This document shows, in pieces, positions 6,441-62,411 of a DNA stretch of 64,000 nt. Below the pieces are notes generated by a model. It was not told where the DNA came from. It was given only the letters and a program-made list of their open reading frames with translations, and ran no database searches. Each line of letters opens with the position of its first letter. The first letter of the stretch is position 1. A program made the translations under genes and the position numbers. Origin of the DNA: Lentisphaera profundi (GTDB lineage: Bacteria; Verrucomicrobiota; Lentisphaeria; Lentisphaerales; Lentisphaeraceae); assembly GCF_028728065.1 (NCBI RefSeq), contig NZ_CP117811.1:310001-374000 (forward strand), given 5' to 3'.

Positions 6441-7781
6441 ATGAGTAAAGAAGAAGCTGTATTAGAAGTTTTGTCTGTGATCATTGATCCCGATTTGGGA
6501 AAAGATATTGTGAGCTTAGGTTTTATTAAGGATCTTGAGATTTCAGATAAAGGCATCGTTGATTTTGCTATTGAATTGACGACTCCAGCTTGCCCAGTGA
6601 AAGAAGAGTTCCGCAGTCGTGCGACGGCTTTGGTCGAGAGTTTATCTTGGGTGACTGAAGTTAATATTACAATGACTGCCCAGCCTCAGAAAGATATAAA
6701 TGCGAATCGTGCAAAAGGTGTTGCTAAAGTTAAGAATATAGTTGCGGTAACCAGTTGCAAAGGCGGCGTGGGTAAATCGACAACAGCGGTAAATTTAGCT
6801 TATTCACTCAAGCGTACAGGTGCAAAAGTCGGTATTTTAGATGCGGATATTTACGGTCCGAGTTTACCCGTCATGGTTTCACCTGAAGATACGGATATTT
6901 ATCAAGGCGGAGGCATGCTTCTTCCTTTGGAATACGAAGGCGTCAAGTTAATGTCGTTTGGTTTTTTAAATACTGATCAAGAAGCGGCGATTATGCGTGG
7001 TCCTATGGTGAGTCAGGTTATTGGCCAAATTGGCGGTGGTTGTGACTGGGATGAGTTAGATTATTTGATTGTCGACTTTCCTCCGGGAACGGGAGATATT
7101 CAATTGACTCTACTGCAATCCTTGCCTTTTACGGCAGCAGTCATTGTGACGACACCACAGAATTTAAGTTTTATAGATGTTATCAAAGGCATCAAGATGT
7201 TTGATCAGCTCAATGTACCTAGTGTAGCAGTGATCGAAAACATGTCTTACTTCACTTGTGGGAACTGCGACGAAAAGCATCGTCCATACGGTCAAGGCGC
7301 ACTCAAAAAATTAGTGGATATGTATGGTTTTCGCCATGCCTTTGAGTTGCCAATTGATACTAAGTTGAGTGATGCAGGCGATACGGGTATACCTCCAGTT
7401 TTGGCTGAGCCCAATGGTGAGTTAGCACGTTATTTTAGTGATATAGCCTCTTCTGTGGCGCGAGAAATTAGCCGTATAGAATATTTAAAAGAAGATAAGC
7501 CAACAGTAGAATATATTGAAGATCGTGGCGTTGTCTTAAAGCAAGGCGAGAAAGAGTTGGTATTTGAGCCCCGAGAATTGCGTTTAGCTTGTTACTGTGC
7601 AGCCTGTCGTCATGAGTTTACAGGCGAGTATATCTTAGACGAGAAATCAGTTCCTGCTAATGTGAAGCCCGAAAGCATACGTGCCATGGGGAATTATGCA
7701 GTTTCAGTCATATGGTCAGATGGACATAGTAGTTCAGTCTATGCCTATGATAAATTATTTGAGATGAAAGATGGAATTTGA
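6441..7781 (+). CDS. mrp: Mrp/NBP35-family Fe-S cluster carrier ATPase
   Basis: About 446 residues. Three domains are visible. An N-terminal MIP18/DUF59 domain (about 1-75, with IIDPDLGKDIVSLGFI and TTPACPVKEEF) comes first. A ParA/MinD-type ATPase follows with the deviant Walker A CKGGVGKSTTAVNLA, switch DADIYGPSLPVM and the YFTCGNCDEKH Cys pair that holds the bridging cluster. A C-terminal DUF971 domain ends it (RLACYCAACRHEFTG to SIRAMGNYAVSVIWSDG). It delivers Fe-S clusters to apo-proteins; IspG, two genes on, is a likely client. I take ATG 6441 rather than the TTG at 6423 because 6441 gives the family start and a sensible leader from the promoter at 6373. Confidence 0.93.
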   Translation: MSKEEAVLEVLSVIIDPDLGKDIVSLGFIKDLEISDKGIVDFAIELTTPACPVKEEFRSRATALVESLSWVTEVNITMTAQPQKDINANRAKGVAKVKNIVAVTSCKGGVGKSTTAVNLAYSLKRTGAKVGILDADIYGPSLPVMVSPEDTDIYQGGGMLLPLEYEGVKLMSFGFLNTDQEAAIMRGPMVSQVIGQIGGGCDWDELDYLIVDFPPGTGDIQLTLLQSLPFTAAVIVTTPQNLSFIDVIKGIKMFDQLNVPSVAVIENMSYFTCGNCDEKHRPYGQGALKKLVDMYGFRHAFELPIDTKLSDAGDTGIPPVLAEPNGELARYFSDIASSVAREISRIEYLKEDKPTVEYIEDRGVVLKQGEKELVFEPRELRLACYCAACRHEFTGEYILDEKSVPANVKPESIRAMGNYAVSVIWSDGHSSSVYAYDKLFEMKDGI

Positions 7782-8448
7782 TGATAATATTTGGTATGCG
7801 GTCAACGAAACACGTATCATTTTAGAACCCGAAAAAGTACTCGAGACTTTTGGTCAAACCAAAATTAAATATCGCATTGTTTGCCAGAGTTCTGATAATT
7901 TATGTAAAGTTCGCGAAGGAGTCATCTTAACAGAGAAGCCTTTGATTCTGAGTGCGACTCAGTTTGCTCAAAAAGTACTGGAAGGCTTTGGCCCGAAAGC
8001 AAGTGAGTATGCGGATTGGCTTAAAGGTCATGGTGATTTACTCAATGTGATTCAGTATGGTCTGCAAATTCGTAAAGAAGAGGTTTCGGAGAGCGAAATT
8101 CACGAAGGGCTTGAAACCGCAGTAGCGAAAGTAGTTGAAGTTGCCGAGAAGGATAAGATGATCAATGTCGTCATCCAAGGCGTTGATGAGATGTGGGAAG
8201 TTTCCTTGTTGAAATTCATGCAATCTTATATGCAAAGATCTGCGCCAGTTAATTTCCAAACTTTCCAAGCTCATCAAGTCAATGCAAACGAACAAATTGG
8301 CAGAGAACAAGATAGTTATATAGAAGATCGTTTTTATGAAGCCCGAGGCAATAAAGCCAAGATTAATGATCTTGGGAAAGAATTGCAAAATTTTGGTAGA
8401 TTTCAAGAATTTGAAGACCGCTTTTACGCTTTGTTGCGTGAGTGTTAA
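7771..8448 (+). CDS. Unknown protein between mrp and ispG
   Basis: A 225-residue soluble, charged protein I do not recognise. There is no signal peptide or membrane segment and no obvious catalytic motif. The N-terminal 75 residues look beta-rich, the rest mostly helical with Glu/Lys-rich stretches. Only three Cys are present (two within the first 50 residues, one last-but-none at the end), so it is not obviously an Fe-S protein. It overlaps mrp by 11 bases and ispG begins 15 bases after its stop. This indicates a co-translated accessory of Fe-S delivery or the MEP pathway, which is inference from position only. Confidence 0.8.
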
Positions 8449-51881: not shown

Positions 51882-52538
51882 TTAATCAGGTATTTCTGTG
51901 ATTTCTATCCATCCAGATGGACAACAGTACTCCTCGCGTCGGGTCATTACAGTATCTAAGAGATTCTTGTAATGCACCCAGTATTTAGTTTGTTTATCCC
52001 CATCGATTTCTACAAGTAGAACATTGTGGTTGATTTTGTCATAGGCTTCCATAACACTAAATATATGTCCTTTAGGTTGTTCTCCATAAAAAGAACTTCT
52101 TCCAATATTAAATAACAAAATGTCATTGCGATCACCGTAATGAGATAAGTGTATTCTGAATAGGTCAAGTGATTGGTAATAATCGATCTCTTTACCATCT
52201 TTAATCTCTGAAGTTAAATAATTGACTGATTCGTGAATTTCGGAAAAAGAAAGTTCTTTAAAACTACTTATTTCAACTTCAGTTTCTTTCATTATAAAAC
52301 CGTCTTTAGTCAATTGGTTAAAAGATACTGAGAGTAATGAGTACTTGATATTTTTCCCTCGTTTTCTATCATCATGAATCTCATTTTCTATACCTTCTAT
52401 TCTTTTGCAATTTGCATCTTTCATTAGATTTTCAGAATGGGAAGAATCTTGGTCTATAACTGTGATTTCCCCAGGAGTACTTTGTAATACACAAGCAACT
52501 AAAAGTGTGCTCATGACAATCCATATTAATAATTTCAT
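51882..52538 (-). CDS. Putative lipoprotein, family A (copy 1)
   Basis: A 218-residue protein starting with a lipoprotein signal: MKLLIWIVMSTLLVAC, Cys16 as the lipidated residue. The mature part has no domain I recognise. It is clearly paralogous to the gene at 54651-55346: both have TPGEI after the signal, then KETE(V/T)EISSFKE, ESVNYL, DLFR, AYD-I-HNVLLVE, KYWVHYKNL and a C-terminal Cys-Ser-Gly-Trp motif. AGAGG five bases before the ATG supports this start. The leader carries four copies of an 8-bp repeat (52546-52577). Function unknown; envelope location expected. Confidence 0.8.
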   Translation of the reverse strand: MKLLIWIVMSTLLVACVLQSTPGEITVIDQDSSHSENLMKDANCKRIEGIENEIHDDRKRGKNIKYSLLSVSFNQLTKDGFIMKETEVEISSFKELSFSEIHESVNYLTSEIKDGKEIDYYQSLDLFRIHLSHYGDRNDILLFNIGRSSFYGEQPKGHIFSVMEAYDKINHNVLLVEIDGDKQTKYWVHYKNLLDTVMTRREEYCCPSGWIEITEIPD

Positions 52539-52545
52539 AGTAACC

Positions 52546-52577
52546 TCTTTTCATCTTTTCATCTTTTCATCTTTTCA
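52546..52577 (-). repeat. 8-bp tandem repeat in the leader of lipoprotein copy 1
   Basis: Four perfect copies of TCTTTTCA on the plus strand. On the transcribed strand this reads as ATGAAAAG units, three with ATG. Two spell the mini-ORF Met-Lys-Arg-stop, the TGA stop overlapping the next ATG (ATGA). The last unit supplies the AGAGG ribosome-binding site of the gene. Confidence 0.85.
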
Positions 52578-53097: not shown

Positions 53098-54501
53098 CTA
53101 AACACTGGTTTTGTAGCTCATATAAAAACGTTTTTCACTCTTATTCCGAGCATAAGAAAATTGCCTGCCATCACGAATATATATAACTTGGTGTTTAGTA
53201 GTTTCACAGAAGCCGCGAAGATGTTTTATGCTATTAAAATACAAGTCGTGAATCACACTTCTAGCGAATGACCGAAAACAGCGAATTGCTTCTGTAATAT
53301 TGAGCTTTTAAGCTTTTTTATTTCCCCATTTTTAAGCTTTTTATGGCTTTGTTCTTTTATGTCTTCGTCGACTTGAAAGGAAAATACACGCGTCATATTT
53401 ACCAGTAAAATACTGGAATTAAAGTCTTGTTGAGCAGTGAGCCATGAGAGCCCCGACCAGTGCTCAATCTCCACGCTTATTTTGTAAGTTTTGAATGCTC
53501 CTTCAATTCTCCTACGAGCTTTGTATATGGCTTTAAATTCTACTGTTGGGTAAGTTTCTTGATCCATGAGATTGGTGACCATTATGTAAGTTGTTTCAGC
53601 TCCTTTTGGATCAGTCAAATGATAGCGAATGAGGCGAAGTTCTAAAGATTTAATATCGTTAACGCCAGCCTTATCTATTAAAGCCTGATGCCTTTCTGAT
53701 GAGGTCAATTTAGAAGGTCTTTTAAAAGTGGCGACATCACCCCTTTGTTACTTTTTATGAATTTCTGAACTGGTTTATGGTTTGTTTGGGAACGAATAAT
53801 AAACTTTATTCCCAATGAACAAAGTAAGGCATAGAACCAATAGCAGTTGTAACCGCGATCCATAACAAGTACATCGTTTGTGTGAACTTGAGGTAATTGT
53901 CCTATGAGCATTTCCATTTCAGTAAATGCGGTGGGGTTTAGTTGGGCATCAATAGCAAGCTCGTTCAAGAGATCATATAAAAGAGAGCAACGAGCAGATG
54001 GTGCTTGTTCCTTTTCAAGGAGCTTACCTTATATCGATCCCTATGTGTTTATAATGACGAATCATGTCAGTTATAAGCACTATCTTCTAAGCGCATGTTA
54101 CTCCCGTCAACACCTATGGCTCGAAAGCCACAAAAGTTTTTGAAATTTGGGTTGATAGATTTGTAATAACTATTAGGTAAAAGCTTATCGACTGCAGTGA
54201 ATGCACGAGGGTGAATCTTTTTTCGCGCTTGGCTATAAGCTTGAGGTATAGGAGTTTTTTCAGGGCTTAAATTATCAGGATTAAAGCTTGAACGCAAGGC
54301 ACTGGAATAGCTTTGGTTTGATTGAAGTAATTGCCAAAAAAGTGTGGGGAAATTCAAGGGGCTTGAACGAGTGAAATGCGCAGCGGAGGTTTTATGCTCC
54401 TGAATGAGGTTTTCAGATTGAACTTCACTTAAAATACTGTGTATTAAATGTATGTCACTTGGGTTGGCTAAGGACTTTCCTCGCGTCAGATTTTCGTGAA
54501 T
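53098..54501 (-). mobile_element. IS4-family transposase relic (copy 1), several frameshifts
   Basis: Pieces of one DDE transposase lie in successive frames. N-terminal part 54501-54067 includes GVDGSNMRL (first Asp). A middle part down to 53705 contains VLVMDRGYN (second Asp). The part 53708-53253 has YKARRRIEGAFKTYK, a perfect Y-(2)-R-(3)-E-(6)-K signature of IS4 with the catalytic Glu. A last frame runs to a stop at 53098-53100 (RDGRQFSYARNK). At least three frameshifts (near 54050, 53720 and 53260) mean it is dead. I could not find terminal inverted repeats. Confidence 0.8.
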
Positions 54502-54650: not shown

Positions 54651-55346
54651 TTATTTGTGGGCCTGAAGCTTATCGTTTTTTTGAAATTTCGAATATCGGA
54701 TTTTTTTCAGTTCTAACCAACCAGAGGAACAATGGTATTGGTTTCTACGAGTCATTGCCGTATCAAAAAGGTTTTTATAATGTACCCAATATTTAGTTTG
54801 TTTATTACCATTTACTTCGATCAATAAAACATTGTGATGGATTCGGTCGTAGGCAACGACCATACTGAAAGTATCATCCTTTGTTTCCTGTCCAAAAAAA
54901 GAGCTTTTTCCAACATTCAATAATAGAATATCCTTACTTGCAACATAATCATATAAATGATTTCTGAATAAATCGAGGGACTGAGAATAATCTATTTTTT
55001 CGCCGTCGTTAATTTCAGAAATCAAATAATTAACGGATTCGTGAATATCTCCAAAAGTAATTTCCTTAAAACTACTTATTTCAGTTTCAGTTTCTTTCAT
55101 AATGAAAACATCTTTTACTCTTTGGTTCATAGAAATAGAAAGTAGAGAATAATTAACTTCTAAGCCTCGTTTTTTAATGTTATTCAGTTCATTTTCTAAA
55201 ACTTGCATTCTTGTGGTGTCAGTATTTTTAATAAGTGCATGACTCCGCGAAGAGTTATACTCGATTACTGCGATTTCTCCTGGCGTAGTGCTGAATACAC
55301 AGCCCATTAAAAATAAACTCATTACAATCCATAGCAAATGTTTCAT
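54651..55346 (-). CDS. Putative lipoprotein, family A (copy 2)
   Basis: A 231-residue paralogue of the gene at 51882. Start chosen at ATG 55346: it gives MKHLLWIVMSLFLMGC with Cys16 at the same place as copy 1, and GGAGG lies five bases upstream; longer in-frame starts up to 55475 would bury the signal. It shares all conserved blocks of copy 1. The tail is longer and basic (after SGWLELKKIRY). It lies between the IS4 and IS1634 relics. Unlike copy 1 its leader has no tandem repeat. Function unknown. Confidence 0.78.
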   Translation of the reverse strand: MKHLLWIVMSLFLMGCVFSTTPGEIAVIEYNSSRSHALIKNTDTTRMQVLENELNNIKKRGLEVNYSLLSISMNQRVKDVFIMKETETEISSFKEITFGDIHESVNYLISEINDGEKIDYSQSLDLFRNHLYDYVASKDILLLNVGKSSFFGQETKDDTFSMVVAYDRIHHNVLLIEVNGNKQTKYWVHYKNLFDTAMTRRNQYHCSSGWLELKKIRYSKFQKNDKLQAHK

Positions 55347-55600
55347 CATAGCCTCCATAGTCTTTTTTTTATCTATATTAATTAACTCACTTTCAATTTT
55401 ATTTACTTCTCCAGCTTGCTTCTTAATTAAACTTATGGTGTACAAAGAATGGGCACAATAAAAGCGATGGTTCATCTATGGGTCAGATAATGATACTTAG
55501 GTGAATCTTCATTTTTTTACAAATTATTAATCCAACTCCCTCCCATTTAGAGTCATAAGACATTGTTAATCAACAAGAATTACTTTTTCAGTACTACATT

Positions 55601-56558
55601 TTACTGAAACACCATATACTTGTGCGGGTTTTTAATAGCTAGATGGGAATAGGTGTCCATGTGAACTAGCTCCGGAAGTGTGCGGATGTTTTTGAAGCAA
55701 GTAGAAATAGATTCCTCCTTCCATTGCAGGCTGGAGCGTCGGTGGTTCTGAAGGCTAAGGCGTAGTTCATGCCATTTCTGTGGTTCACATGCCAATAAGA
55801 GGCGATACTCAATATTCGCTAGTAAATGATAAGCTAAAATGGAGAGGAACAAGTGAGCCTTGATGATTAACGGGACGAATCCCTAGATCAGTTTTTATTG
55901 AGCAAAAGGCAATCTCGAACAGAGTGAGAGTCGTGTAAGTCCTCCAAATGAGTTCTTCATTGCCATCAAATCCTGATGTAGCACCCTGTCAAATGAGTTT
56001 CTGTCGGCTTAATTGTATAAGTGAGGCTTGAGTGATTTTCGGTAAGATTGAGCTCAAAAGTTTATGGAAGCCACTGTATGTTTTTTTGATTCTTCCTAAA
56101 CGCTCATGGATTGTCGTCGATTTTTCACTCGCCCTGAGCTAATTGATTTAAGCAGTGTATCTAAGCTTTTGCTTGCGCGCTTAATTTTTTGCTCACGCAT
56201 AGCTTGTCTTTCTCTTCACGCGCTTCACTGCGGCAAAGAACTTGATTACCAATTTTTTTGAGGTGGATCGTCTGACCCTTAGTATTGCTAATCTACTTAA
56301 AGCCCAGCCTCGGAGAGAATTCATCTTTAAATTCGGGTATTTTATTGGCACTCCTATATACACTCAAAAACCTCGCTTTTTATAGGTTGGGCATGCTCAT
56401 CAACGATAAGGGCTAAGTTTATGAGGGCATTTTGATTGCGCTTGTCTTTAGATTTATCATGTTTTACAAGCTCATTGTCTTCGGCTTTACCCTCAACGTA
56501 AAAATTGCTTAGGTTAAAAAGGAATAAGGTCTTTTGGTGATTTATTTTATCATAGGCT
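55601..56558 (-). mobile_element. IS1634-family transposase relic, multiply frameshifted
   Basis: Recognisable blocks in order on the minus strand: LFLFNLSNFYVEGKAEDNE (about 56530-56470, like the LYDxTxxYFEG block), GKSKDKR-like KHDKSKDKRNQ and LALIVDEHAQPIKSEVFE. Next come KSLDTLLKSISSGR and IHERLGRIKKTYSG in shifted frames, then WRTYTTLTLFEIAFCSIK and DLGIRPVNHQ (about 55940-55870; catalytic Glu in FEIAF). HLFLSILAYHLLANIEYRL and the C-terminus end at 55601. At least four frame changes, so inactive. Terminal repeats not identified. Confidence 0.75.
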
Positions 56559-56632
56559 TCCATTGCACTACTAGATAAAATAGAGGTTTTTGATGAAATT
56601 ATATTATTTGAAGTAGTGAAAACGTTACTCAC
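56520..56632 (-). pseudogene. Possible third fragment of lipoprotein family A
   Basis: The stretch coding MEAYDKINH at about 56563-56537 matches lipoprotein copy 1 over 27 bases with three differences, including silent ones, and weak similarity extends a little upstream. It runs straight into the IS1634 transposase block in the same frame. It may be a remnant joined to the element, but a chance match within the transposase cannot be excluded. Confidence 0.35.
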
Positions 56633-56642
56633 AGTATACGAG

Positions 56643-59630
56643 TCAATTCGTATCCCATCGAGCTTTTGTTTTTCTTAAAAAATTACTCCACTCTGATTTC
56701 GTCTTAGTGCGAGGACGAAGTTGAGGTGAAATAGGACGTGGCGATGTCCATTTTATGTGATATTCTCCATCATCTTCTACATGTGCAATATGTACATGTC
56801 TCCAAATGTAATCATTGTTTTCGTCAATATATGTCAAGCCTCCTGGACCAAGGAAGGAAGAACCTCTTAGAGAAACTTTTATTTTCTCGAGAGAGAATGA
56901 TTGTGCACGTTGCACCGCTTTTGCCCATAATTGAATGCCACAATAGGCAGACTCCATAAAGCGACCTATCCGATCATGATTATTATATTTTGATTTATAT
57001 CGTTGAATGAAATTATCGTTTATAGGATTGTTATTATTTTGAAAGTAATTTCCTATTCCATACAAACCGATGCAATACTCATGGGGGATTTTAACAAGAT
57101 CATCATCGGTTAAGTTAAGAGGTGCAACTTTTATATTCAAGTCAGCCAAGCCACAGTCGTGGAATTTCTTTAAGAAAGAGATGTTACTAGCAAGGCTAGT
57201 AAGTGTTATAATAATTACTGCAGGTCTTTGTCTTTTGATGTCTGCTACTATCCTGTCAAAGTTAAGTTCATCAAGAGCTGCGTACTGTTCTGCAAGGATG
57301 GTGCAACCATAGCTTTTAATCGTCTCAGTGAGGTGTTTGTTTATGATGATGGGTTGAATGTCGTCCGAGCCAAGAAGGTAAAAAGTATCCGAGTCTTTCT
57401 TATTTACGAACCAATCAATTAGTGGTGAGGAGTTCAAATTGCTCGTTGAGCCAGTGTATAGAACATTATTAAGGTGTTCCATTCCTTCGTGGTTAAAAGG
57501 ATAGATGGTTAGACTATCATTATGATTATTAATATCCTCTACAAGTGCCTTCGTATTTGATGTCGAACAAGAAATAATAGTATGAATTTTTTTCTTTGTA
57601 AGCTGTGTGAAGTCATCAAAAATCTCGTATTTTATCTGTTTATTAAGAAGACCACCATTAAAATTTATCTCATCCAAAGCCATAATAGAGGTTTTTAAAA
57701 CACCGTCTTTAATCTTATCACAATTAACAAGTCCAACCTTATAGTGACCCGAACTATTTTTCAAATTAATACAGTTTATCGGCTTAGGTACTGATGCAAT
57801 TAAATTATTGAGTGAATCTGGACATGAGTAGTCTAATTCTTTATTCATTTCATACATAGATGCATTCAGATTGGCAATGTGCTTCTCGAATTTTTTAAGT
57901 TTTAATCGAATTTTATCAGAGTCCGTTTCATAATGAATTTCAAGTGCTTTTTTAAGCATGTCGTGGGCTTTGTCTGTACGGCGATTAATTAGATAAATTT
58001 CTATTAATTCGAGATATGTTTTAATTAGATCTTCATTTTTTTGAGAAAGACTTAATGCGATATTAAGTACTTTAATAGCTTTGGTAGGGATGTTTAACAG
58101 TTTCAGTAGAGTTCCTTTCAAAAAAAAGAGAGAAAAGGACCTGGTGTTGACCTGAAGTGATATAGCGGTATTAACTTTTAATAAAGCTTCAGAATATTCT
58201 TGTTGATCAATAAGTGATTTAGCCGATCCTTCGAGAATAATAGAGGCGTCTTTAAGCATCATTGATTTTTCTAAATGGTAGGCATAATTGTTTTTATCCA
58301 AAGATTGAAAGTGTTGAGCGATATTCTTGTGAATCGATACTTTTTCTATCGGTGGAATATTACGGTAAACAATTAAATGAACTAGACCATGATAAAAGGT
58401 GAATGAATCATTATCCAATTGTTTGAAGAATTTTAATTCAACAGTCCGAGCGGGATTAAATTCATCAAAAGAGCATATCTTTTTAATGGATTCCAGAGAG
58501 AAGGTGCCTGTCATAGCGGAAGCTGTTTTGATAAACTTAAGTTCATTGTTAGAAAATAATAAAAGCTTTTCTTTTATTAGTATACTCAATGTCGGAGGAA
58601 TGGTCTCAAGCACCTGTGGGTACTGGTTCAAAAGCATTTCGAGAAAAAGAGGATTGCCATCGGCGAGGCTTATACATGTGTTTTTGTATTCTTCCGAGAT
58701 TTGAGGTGATGTATCGGTAATAGATTTTATTTCTACGTCACTTAATTTGTCTAACTCAATAGTTTTACAATTAATATTTAAAACATTACTATTTAATAAT
58801 AAATCTGAAGGGTCACCAGTCAAACGACTACTAAAAATGAAATCACAGAAGTATTTGTGTGCTTGTGATATTAGTATTTTCAGGAAATCTAAGACGTTTT
58901 GTGGAGCAAAATGTAAATCTTCAAAAATAATAATGGCGTTTGTGCTGAGAGAGTGACATAGAGTTAAGATTAACTCAGTTTCCAAATATACTTTATCACT
59001 AAAATCCACACCAATAATAGGTGATTGATGCTTAGTCTGCAAGATTTTATTTAAGTAGTTTTTAAATTGTATACTTATATTCAGACTCTTGATGGCTTGT
59101 TCAATTGAAAGAGTGTTATCTAATGTATGAGGTTTGATCTTAAAAAGAAGTTGTTTTAAAAGATTTTTTATAAGGTCTGGTTTTGTTGTTTGTCGTATTT
59201 GAACAGTCAAGTAGATGCGTTGGTACGAATTAGGTGAGAGAGAATTGATGAATTTCTTAATGAAATGAGTCTTTCCAATTCCAGCCTCCCCTTTTAGATA
59301 TATTAAGGAATTTTTTTGTTTATTAAGATTATCATTTAAAAATTCAGTGGAATCTTGCAATAATATTGTTCTAGTAATAAATCTTGTAGGCTCAAGTTGA
59401 GTTTCTTCTGTAAGTAATTCTGTGACTTCAACCTTTAAAACTTTAGCAATATCAATAGCTGTATTGTAATATACTTTTGCGCCTGACTCTGCTCGTTTGA
59501 GAGTGGAGATCGACATGTAACACTTTTGTTCGATACTTTTTTGAACAAACATTTCTCTGCTGAGAATCATTTTTTGACGCGATTTTTTAATTTTTTCTCC
59601 GTTAAGGGAAATCCTTCCATTTTCATTCAT
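56643..59630 (-). CDS. XRE - AAA/STAND ATPase - TPR - AmiC/UrtA-like ligand-binding fusion regulator
   Basis: A 995-residue soluble protein without signal peptide or membrane helix. Order: XRE-type helix-turn-helix (about 10-72, STLKRAESGAKVYYNTAIDIAK); AAA_16/STAND ATPase (about 85-420) with Walker A GEAGIGKT (114-121), Walker B IIIFEDLH (233-240), FIFSSRLTGD and ADGNPLFLEML (323-333); TPR-like helices (about 430-600); and a type 1 periplasmic-binding-protein domain of the AmiC/UrtA/FmdD group (about 628-970). The last shows ALDEINFNGGLLNKQIKYEI, YPFNHEGME, VLYTGSTSN, YLLGSDD, GIGNYFQ and a closing HIAHVEDDGEYHIKW. I infer a cytoplasmic one-component sensor: ligand binding gates the ATPase and DNA binding. 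The ATG follows six 8-bp repeats. Intact amid decayed neighbours. Confidence 0.85.
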   Translation of the reverse strand: MNENGRISLNGEKIKKSRQKMILSREMFVQKSIEQKCYMSISTLKRAESGAKVYYNTAIDIAKVLKVEVTELLTEETQLEPTRFITRTILLQDSTEFLNDNLNKQKNSLIYLKGEAGIGKTHFIKKFINSLSPNSYQRIYLTVQIRQTTKPDLIKNLLKQLLFKIKPHTLDNTLSIEQAIKSLNISIQFKNYLNKILQTKHQSPIIGVDFSDKVYLETELILTLCHSLSTNAIIIFEDLHFAPQNVLDFLKILISQAHKYFCDFIFSSRLTGDPSDLLLNSNVLNINCKTIELDKLSDVEIKSITDTSPQISEEYKNTCISLADGNPLFLEMLLNQYPQVLETIPPTLSILIKEKLLLFSNNELKFIKTASAMTGTFSLESIKKICSFDEFNPARTVELKFFKQLDNDSFTFYHGLVHLIVYRNIPPIEKVSIHKNIAQHFQSLDKNNYAYHLEKSMMLKDASIILEGSAKSLIDQQEYSEALLKVNTAISLQVNTRSFSLFFLKGTLLKLLNIPTKAIKVLNIALSLSQKNEDLIKTYLELIEIYLINRRTDKAHDMLKKALEIHYETDSDKIRLKLKKFEKHIANLNASMYEMNKELDYSCPDSLNNLIASVPKPINCINLKNSSGHYKVGLVNCDKIKDGVLKTSIMALDEINFNGGLLNKQIKYEIFDDFTQLTKKKIHTIISCSTSNTKALVEDINNHNDSLTIYPFNHEGMEHLNNVLYTGSTSNLNSSPLIDWFVNKKDSDTFYLLGSDDIQPIIINKHLTETIKSYGCTILAEQYAALDELNFDRIVADIKRQRPAVIIITLTSLASNISFLKKFHDCGLADLNIKVAPLNLTDDDLVKIPHEYCIGLYGIGNYFQNNNNPINDNFIQRYKSKYNNHDRIGRFMESAYCGIQLWAKAVQRAQSFSLEKIKVSLRGSSFLGPGGLTYIDENNDYIWRHVHIAHVEDDGEYHIKWTSPRPISPQLRPRTKTKSEWSNFLRKTKARWDTN

Positions 59631-59678
59631 TTCCTCATTTCCTCATTTCCTCATTTCCTCATTTCCTCATTTCCTCAT
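59631..59678 (-). repeat. Six 8-bp repeats forming coupled mini-ORFs before the fusion-regulator start
   Basis: Six perfect copies of TTCCTCAT (plus strand), abutting the start codon at 59630. Read on the coding strand each unit is ATGAGGAA: it holds a GAGGA ribosome-binding site and an ATG. Each ATG begins Met-Arg-Lys-stop, whose TGA overlaps the next ATG as ATGA; the sixth stop overlaps the real start in the same way. The unit is 8 bp, typical of slippage-prone repeats. Confidence 0.9.
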
Positions 59679-60177: not shown

Positions 60178-61325
60178 TTAGCCCTGTTTATTTTTCGCAA
60201 TAGCATCATCAAGTTCTTCCACTGAGGCATAGCGCAGGAAAAAGAACTGTATCATCTCCATTTGTCTTAGGGTTGGTTTTTTGCCAAACAAGTCGAATAA
60301 CATGATGGCGGCGATAAGTGCGCAATACATCTGTATTGCGACACCATTAGAAGATTCAGCTAGTAATTTGCGGCAACCCAAGATGGACTTGAGCCATTTG
60401 AAAAAGACTTCAATTTGCCAGCGTTGACGATAAATAGTACTGATGAGTGCAGCATTGAGTTTCTCGGGCCCCTCAGAAGTAACCAAGAGGATTTCTTTGT
60501 CGTTAAATGCACCAGTTCTTACTAATCTGATTGGTTTAAGTTTACGGTCGGTATCGCCAAGGTAGACAAGTTGATCAGAGATGACGCCTTCCTTGCGATC
60601 TTCATCAGAGACTTCATATTCTTCGATCACAGTGATTTTGGGTTTGTTTCGAATTCGTATAGTGAAAAGTGCGCCACGCTGGCGAAGTTCTTCGAAGTAG
60701 CTGTAATCCAATCCGTAATAGCGATCACACACATACATCACACCTGGTTGTACCATTTTGAGCAAGGCTTTACGTTCACAACTATTACGGCAGTGATAAC
60801 GGCATTGACCGCTTTCTCTTTGAGTAATGAGAACCCTAGGTGAAGTTTTGCTGCTTTATGATTTTCATCTAACCAATCCGCCCACAAAACTCTCGTTAGT
60901 GTTTGAAATAAGCTTCCGTCAACGGCAACCAAGTCCTTGGCTGCCGCTAAAAGACTTCGATTTTGAAGTTTATCGGGCTGAACCTTAGCAGTTAATTTCT
61001 GAACAAGTTTTTGTAATGCATCAGCATCGAATACGTGCTGAGCTTCCGAAAAACTACCCAAGCTGATTTTACTGAAAGTGACATGTTCTTGAACTTTTTT
61101 GAGTTCGCTTGCGGCACAAAGGCCACGCATAGGTTTAAGCACAGGGTTGAACAGAGTAAAAAGGATTGCTGAAGCATAATCTAGGTAATGTAATTTGCGG
61201 CGAGGGTCATCTTCAGAAGGATGTTTAGGGTGGTGTTCAAGTTCCTTTGTTAGGGACTTTCGAAACTCTTGGATTAAACACCAGCGCTTTAGGTTTCGTT
61301 CTTCTGTTTTAGTTATCTTCTTCAT
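60178..61325 (-). mobile_element. IS4-family transposase (copy 2) with a single frameshift
   Basis: Two overlapping frames cover one DDE transposase. 61325-60738 gives the N-terminal half with VAVDGSLFQTL (first Asp). 60765-60178 gives MYVCDRYYGLDY (second Asp) and YRQRWQIEVFFKWLK, a perfect IS4 Y-(2)-R-(3)-E-(6)-K signature. Adding one G near 60795 (in ACTGCCG) would restore a continuous frame reading T-A-G-N-S-C-E-R. So this copy is recent and barely damaged, or the base is an assembly error. It is not closely similar to copy 1. Terminal repeats were not identified. Confidence 0.85.
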
Positions 61326-61603
61326 ATGCAAGAAGATATAGATTAAAACCAAAAAGTAAAGTAGTCCTAATCACTTGACTACAAGCATCTTATGATCTGG
61401 TCATACATGCGCCGAGAATGGGCCTCTAGATGTCTTTTTTAGCGTTAGCAGTCCCTCTGTGCTATTAATCATCTATATGGATAGCCTGCCAAGCCTCAGG
61501 CAGCAACTAAATTCACCAATAGAAAAAACGCGGATTTTGACACCCTTGTTGATGGCGGTGAAAAAGTTTCAACTATTTTAATATCATTGTCATACGTAGT
61601 TGA
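61326..61603. other. Intergenic, nothing recognised
   Basis: About 280 bases between the IS4 element and the nitroreductase relic. I see no gene, repeat or terminator I can support. Confidence 0.4.
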
Positions 61604-62211: not shown

Positions 62212-62411
62212 CTCCAAGTTTAATTTAAACGTAATTATAGAATCCTAATGCACTACTCTTTTACCCGAAGGAGTTATTTGCAAATTTTTTAATGAATTTA
62301 CGACATATCTGTCTAAATATATTGTGTTCTAAAATAGTCCGATAAAATATCATCTCATAGTTCACTTGTGGTTCAGATAGGGCTCACTTAAGGCATACTA
62401 TGTTTTATTTA

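Follow-up and report, generated by a model that had tools for sequence, protein, structure and literature searches.

A protein of Lentisphaera profundi joins an XRE-like helix-turn-helix (HTH), a STAND ATPase, TPR-like helices and a UrtA/AmiC-type binding protein in a single chain. Its gene lies in the 64,000-nucleotide stretch of DNA analysed here (hereinafter, the window). The domain combination is real and, as far as could be searched, undescribed, whereas the kind of switch is already known. New here are the predicted operator and the predicted regulon of these XRE-STAND-binding-protein regulators. The reading that we favour, and hold to be fairly probable, is a STAND activator resembling MalT and AfsR with a new pairing of effector and sensor, the window copy being a paralogue with an eroded pocket and predicted local operators. 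One cytoplasmic transcription factor thereby unites the periplasmic-binding-protein fold with the ATPase switch of STAND proteins (MalT, AfsR, animal NLRs), both of them well studied.

Domain layout and descent of the regulator

The regulator gene is a frame of 995 codons on the minus strand, with its start at 59630 and the end of its stop codon at 56643. The coordinates of the preliminary description are correct and its intact frame is confirmed: no internal stop interrupts it, and the plus strand across the same interval contains many stops. The gene and its parts are as follows.

56643-59630, minus strand: XRE-STAND-TPR-Peripla_BP_5 regulator gene, 995 codons (frame, Pfam and motifs)
59406-59630, minus strand: XRE-like HTH, residues 1-75; recognition-helix region SISTLKRAE near-identical in sister copies
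58611-59378, minus strand: STAND NTPase core, residues about 85-340; Walker A 114 GEAGIGKT, Walker B IIIFEDLH, sensor-1 SSRL, GNPLF
57831-58610, minus strand: winged helix, arm and TPR-like helices; residues about 341-600 are modelled as all helix at low confidence, and Pfam TPR scores are weak across the family
56706-57746, minus strand: UrtA/AmiC-type periplasmic-binding-protein fold, residues about 629-975 (Pfam, AlphaFold, Foldseek)
59627-59678, minus strand: perfect 8-bp tandem repeat, 6.5 copies of TGAGGAAA, with a repeated Shine-Dalgarno-like GAGGAA, directly 5' of the regulator start codon

In the C-terminal domain, Peripla_BP_5 matches residues 644-970 with an E value of 2.2e-66, far over the Pfam cut-off, so that the fold expected from the preliminary description is indeed present. 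The AlphaFold model of residues 610-995 has a mean pLDDT of 77 and a pTM of 0.78, and its best PDB matches in Foldseek are UrtA structures (8tg1, 7s6e, 8hic and 7s6f), followed by AmiC (1qo0/1pea). The model of residues 1-630, made from a two-sequence input, is poor (pLDDT 47), and the HTH-NTPase-TPR layout therefore rests on motifs and sequence. Specifically, the motif search found a complete STAND set comprising Walker A, Walker B, sensor-1 Arg, GxP and the winged-helix His, in agreement with the ATPase described before; AAA_16 is under the Pfam cut-off in the window copy and over it in the orthologues.

Two other parts of the preliminary description score low in Pfam. The window HTH is marginal by itself, with E 0.008 and 16.6 bits against HTH_3; the orthologues reach E 6e-4 at best, and the same module recurs at the end of a separate H-NOX-associated protein, but every copy stays under the 23-bit Pfam cut-off. 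Similarly, TPR is weak in all copies and under all Pfam cut-offs, although the region is all helix in the low-confidence model. A signal peptide was looked for in the window protein and not found, as described before, and a scan of all 995 residues gave no stretch with the hydrophobicity of a membrane helix; the protein is cytoplasmic. Since the octamer repeat before its start codon contains a Shine-Dalgarno-like motif in several copies, translation of the regulator could be adjusted by slippage.

The STAND core by itself would also suit a defence protein of the Avs kind. This reading was rejected and has next to no probability, because PADLOC gave no credible match (at best E 0.008, 13.6 bits), the protein has no effector domain such as a nuclease, and the operators are local.

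A second full-length copy lies 1.8 Mb away in the same genome (1035 aa, 38% identity to the window copy), and orthologues with the same architecture are present in two other Lentisphaera genomes, one of them L. marina. The architecture is found in four intact genes. Because a second gene and two orthologues share it, the window gene is not an assembly fusion, a concern raised in the preliminary description. A stop-riddled remnant lies in the genome designated G005, from another genus of the family. In a survey covering 338 sampled genomes of the phylum, the fusion is absent from all others, which have separate binding proteins or nothing. Genome contigs scanned with an N-terminal alignment by way of two very strict peptide patterns returned L. 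marina only. In a tblastn search of 72,556 plasmids, 1,500 records match, all partially and mainly in the binding-protein part, and none covers 80% of the query. The preliminary description knew of no account of the XRE-STAND-binding-protein architecture, and the literature searched, which mostly excluded subscription papers, gave none either.

In a tree of binding-protein domains the fusions form a single clade with 100/100 support; domain order, paralogy and single origin are computed observations. The closest neighbours of the clade are non-transporter lipoprotein binding proteins and not the UrtA group. Two of these lipoproteins adjoin methyl-accepting-chemotaxis (MCP)-like genes.

Predicted operator and regulon

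Comparison of the regions upstream of the lipoprotein and p178 genes, which are mutually unrelated, revealed a shared element with the consensus TGAnCYnTAnn|TnAnCY, that is, two half-sites in the same direction, 11 bp apart. No palindromic operator is common to the upstream regions. A TTG lies at a fixed distance 3' of the repeats, and TAnnT[T/A] follows 17 bp after that hexamer. When 11 promoters were aligned in one register, TTG was present in 10 and TAnnT[T/A], the −10 element, which had not been used to find them, in all 11. Run over 1 Mb of random sequence, a weight matrix of the element had no match that reached 17 bits; it then located further sites at the same loci.

The element is confined to these loci. 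A composite pattern of two 11-bp direct repeats, TTG, spacer and TAnnT, allowing at most one mismatch, has 12 matches in six genomes (32 Mb), all beside the XRE-STAND-binding-protein genes of genomes G000, G001 and G002; the reversed control pattern has one. No match occurs in G003-G005, relatives without an intact regulator copy. With repeats and TTG and no −10 element in the pattern, the matches fall at these loci in four of four cases in G001 and three of four in each of G002 and G000. Those of G001 all lie within about 6.2 kb around the regulator, for which the chance is about 6e-9 under a uniform model. Since the sites serve unrelated genes, they do not reflect an inherited coding neighbourhood. 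The regulator's own promoter does not carry the element. One further high-scoring operator match, G000:C2:1140209, was set aside, as it lies in GC-rich, coding-looking sequence with no −35 or −10. The corresponding features of the window are as follows.

55430-55485, minus strand: predicted activator-dependent promoter, TGACCCATAGA then TGAACCATCGC, TTGTGC, 17 bp, TAAGTT; precedes the lipoprotein gene
54651-55346, minus strand: degenerate phytochelatin-synthase-like lipoprotein, catalytic Cys/His absent; predicted operator target, 1.2 kb from the regulator
51882-52538, minus strand: second degenerate phytochelatin-synthase-like lipoprotein, no operator
52546-52577: perfect 8-bp tandem repeat, 4 copies, directly before the start codon of the second lipoprotein
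56354-56632, minus strand: possible remnant of a third lipoprotein copy; short similar stretch only
62354-62397, minus strand: possible additional target; 11-bp repeats resembling half-sites, four in tandem, separate a Ser/Thr-kinase gene from a small ORF

The position of the promoter moves the likely start of the first lipoprotein to 55346/55349 from the listed ORF start at 55475. A weaker operator match also lies beside the L. marina orthologue of the kinase gene.

Every intact regulator copy is adjoined by a lipoprotein gene with the C-terminal half of a phytochelatin-synthase fold (PF05023, borderline scores). The catalytic Cys and His are missing from these lipoproteins and are present in a true homologue elsewhere in each genome, which appears to be active. 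The dead lipoprotein family was seen only beside STAND regulators, namely at the two window loci and at L016:7946-8632, L019:11110-11796 and L020:10996-11775.

The sister locus also contains a convergent FAD oxidase, whose best PDB match is tryptophan 2-monooxygenase (4iv9, E 8e-89) and which matches L-amino-acid oxidase/monooxygenase as well (3we0, E 2e-64). Two operators in the intergenic region between the oxidase and p178 face both genes, in G000 and in G001. The 178-aa gene p178 is kept in all three genomes, and a 320-aa neighbour gene has a weak GH18 resemblance. The predicted targets at the sister loci are the dead phytochelatin-synthase-like lipoprotein, the tryptophan-2-monooxygenase-like and putatively amide-forming oxidase, and two uncharacterised genes. 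A link to amino sugars was considered for the NagB/PIG-L deacetylase genes beside the sister copy and rejected, as these genes are not conserved beside the orthologues.

The operators could be read by another protein, and XRE proteins are often repressors. On the second contig of this genome, the gene after that for an H-NOX (haem-NO-binding) protein encodes 242 aa with a weak HNOBA match and an XRE-like HTH at the end (L018:6970-7698 and 7700-8239, minus strand). This H-NOX-linked protein, with HTH-level homologues in G001 and G002, looks like a nitric-oxide-responsive regulator with the same DNA-binding module. Nevertheless, a repressor or another XRE protein as the user of the sites is rather unlikely: the fixed distance of the sites from the −35 element, on its upstream side, is that of an activator, and no operator site was found near the H-NOX gene or in genomes without an intact STAND copy.

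Eroded pocket and fast evolution of the window copy

The ligand contacts of AmiC, which we take to be the first ligand loop, Tyr/Trp83, Ser85, Tyr104, Tyr150 and Tyr/Phe152 (AmiC numbering), were located by alignment. The pocket changes of the window copy are directly visible there, and two of them have the following coordinates.

57705-57725, minus strand: deleted first ligand loop, NC-----DKIKDG in the window copy vs HSTSGFLKEHEEG in the sister copy
57354-57362, minus strand: GSDDIQP in place of GSDYxYP; the positions of AmiC Tyr150/Tyr152 are Asp757/Gln759

The first ligand loop, HSxSGxxxxxEE in the sister copies and UrtA, is missing from the window copy, which lacks 11 more residues besides. 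Residues 18-27 of the AlphaFold model, at the deleted loop, have a pLDDT below 50. The position of UrtA Trp or AmiC Tyr83 is Ser in every intact fusion copy. The window copy retains positions 85 and 104, and the sister pockets retain the Ser85, Tyr104, Tyr150 and Tyr152 positions. Compared with a UrtA/AmiC pocket, the window copy therefore has its loop deleted, Ser at 83, Asp at 150 and Gln at 152.

The window copy has also evolved fast. Its identity to the orthologues is 56-60% in the HTH, its most conserved domain, 22-26% in the NTPase, 28-31% in the winged-helix/TPR region and 45-46% in the binding domain, vs 71-85%, 51-62%, 55-63% and 71-78%, respectively, among the orthologues. In the tree of the binding domain, its terminal branch measures 1.28, vs 0.16-0.18. 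Two and perhaps three lipoprotein gene copies, along with transposase remnants, share a block of about 10 kb with the gene, and the syntenic place in L. marina, between the 6-phosphogluconolactonase and kinase genes, contains no genes of this block. Broken transposase frames flank the regulator block on both sides (window 53253-54357 and 60178-61352); the right-hand frame has a DDE_Tnp_1 match, and the left-hand ones are fragment-like, with no Pfam match where tested. At L092:15284-15637, L. marina has a partial duplicate of 6-phosphogluconolactonase preceded by short coding-like MEFYSISLSPRPVLSF repeats.

The window copy is thus a fast-evolving paralogue on a 10-kb island, with its DNA-binding head kept and its pocket eroded, and it is possibly ligand-blind. 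It has lost the D and R of the otherwise conserved winged-helix HDLIR motif; together with the fast evolution, this loss suggests that the copy may be losing function. A decaying paralogue with little or no function has a minor but appreciable chance, given the long branch and lost pocket residues, the transposase remnants and duplicated lipoprotein genes on an island that L. marina lacks at the syntenic place, and the family member full of stops in G005. Yet 995 codons are free of stops, the NTPase motifs and the recognition-helix region are kept, and an operator-bearing target lies 1.2 kb away.

Because the ligand pocket is eroded, the window protein probably answers to a different ligand or to none. 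The preliminary description proposed an amide/urea-like sensor, and the best solved relatives of the domain are indeed urea-binding UrtA and amide-binding AmiC. With the first ligand loop lost and the pocket tyrosines replaced by Asp and Gln, however, sensing of urea or short-chain amides is unsupported for the window copy and must be judged improbable. Position 83 is Ser in all fusions, and the genome has no other Peripla_BP_5 domain and hence no UrtA transporter. The presence in the sister regulon of a relative of amide-making tryptophan 2-monooxygenase/L-amino-acid monooxygenase favours an amide, but L. marina has a decayed oxidase gene and G002 has none, and the regulator persists in both.

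For the sister copy an amide ligand is possible, because its predicted regulon includes the putatively amide-forming amino-acid monooxygenase, and an amide is for this reason the first ligand worth testing. The sister copies might sense an oxidase-linked amide or aromatic, such as indole-3-acetamide, the Trp/Tyr-to-Ser exchange making room for a larger side chain, with the window copy ligand-blind on the same operators. The paired operators between oxidase and p178, the tryptophan 2-monooxygenase match and the retained sister pocket positions agree with this reading, but the oxidase is lost or decayed in two of three species and its specificity is predicted from sequence. We regard it as unlikely. 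A more elaborate version is quite unlikely: a whole solute-binding protein would have been captured as a STAND sensor, the sister copy tuned to an amide made by the monooxygenase of its own regulon, and the window duplicate, ligand-blind, sharing the operators and starting behind a slippage-prone octamer repeat, so that the two would form a sensor pair with one gated subunit and one ungated but switchable subunit.

Proposed switch and comparison with known systems

A STAND regulator rests as a monomer locked by ADP, and multimerisation follows once an inducer has opened it (PMC4381067, PMC6468293). In AfsR the DNA-binding head is N-terminal and accompanied by NOD and TPR, and the protein binds a pair of 11-bp direct repeats (PMC10936776). 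In the favoured reading, a STAND activator, the resting NTPase would be closed and ADP-bound. Ligand would move the C-terminal type-1 binding-protein domain, and the signal would pass through the TPR-like/arm region and open the NTPase. ATP would replace ADP, and the molecules would assemble head to tail. The N-terminal XRE-like HTHs would then occupy the pair of 11-bp direct repeats that lies shortly before the −35 element, and the bound regulators would recruit RNA polymerase to the neighbouring promoters; in the window, the lipoprotein gene at 54651-55346 would be the target. Half-sites spaced by one helical turn, and so on the same face of the DNA, suit a STAND assembly, and the position of the repeats suits an activator. 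The sister copies probably switch on the neighbouring, strictly conserved promoter element.

Because the predicted 22-bp operator is specific and its targets are a handful, ligand, assembly and activation are directly testable. A natural STAND switch gated by a clamshell binding domain would, if true, be a ready biosensor chassis. The paralogue pair, one pocket near-normal and one eroded, shows loss of a sensor with its output kept.

UrtA (8tg1, 7s6e, 8hic) offers the closest solved sequences and fold for the C-terminal domain, but UrtA is exported and feeds an ABC transporter, whereas the window protein has no export signal, no transporter genes and no ligand loop. It scores 217.8 bits against the UrtA profile TIGR03407, under the cut-off of 492.75. 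The lipoprotein binding proteins beside MCP-like genes in the phylum (L025-L028) group with the fusion domain in the tree (99/97) and have the same C-terminal EW..WGG.W tail, but they are separate, exported and unfused to a regulator; they are not transporter-linked in the two regions inspected. The UrtA-like lipoproteins at L073:9685-11001 and L074:8909-10210 adjoin MCP-like membrane signalling proteins and not ABC transporter genes. The MCP-adjoining lipoproteins suggest a sensory branch of the binding-protein family. The same tail occurs on a UrtA-like binding protein anchored in the membrane, in a different genus of the family (L023:8317-9738); the product of one gene near it seems, by our impression of its sequence, to resemble the DUF4157-type proteins of contractile injection systems.

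AmiC of Pseudomonas aeruginosa (1pea, 1qo0) is likewise a cytoplasmic type-1 binding-protein fold that serves as the sensor of a regulator. AmiC, however, works as a stand-alone protein, silencing the antiterminator AmiR, whereas the domain described here is part of the transcription factor itself and has different pocket residues.

MalT of E. coli shares the NTPase switch, the arm and TPR region and the logic of a ligand-gated transcription activator. In MalT, a DNA-binding domain of the LuxR type sits at the C-terminus and the TPR sensor takes maltotriose as its ligand, whereas the window protein has an XRE-like HTH at its N-terminus and carries an entire binding-protein domain at the other end. 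Pfam matched no C-terminal LuxR HTH of the MalT/LAL type, the binding-protein domain being in that place.

AfsR of Streptomyces coelicolor (SARP-NOD-TPR, PMC10936776) shares the N-terminal DNA-binding domain, NOD, TPR and two 11-bp direct repeats. It differs in its SARP head and in having no binding-protein domain; the head of the window protein is XRE-like, with no Pfam match to the SARP OmpR-type DNA-binding and BTA domains. The afs box is centred at −29.5 and overlaps the −35 element, whereas the Lentisphaera repeats end about 5 bp upstream of it. The SARP-like operator logic, two 11-bp direct repeats at a promoter, thus recurs here at a position unlike that of AfsR.
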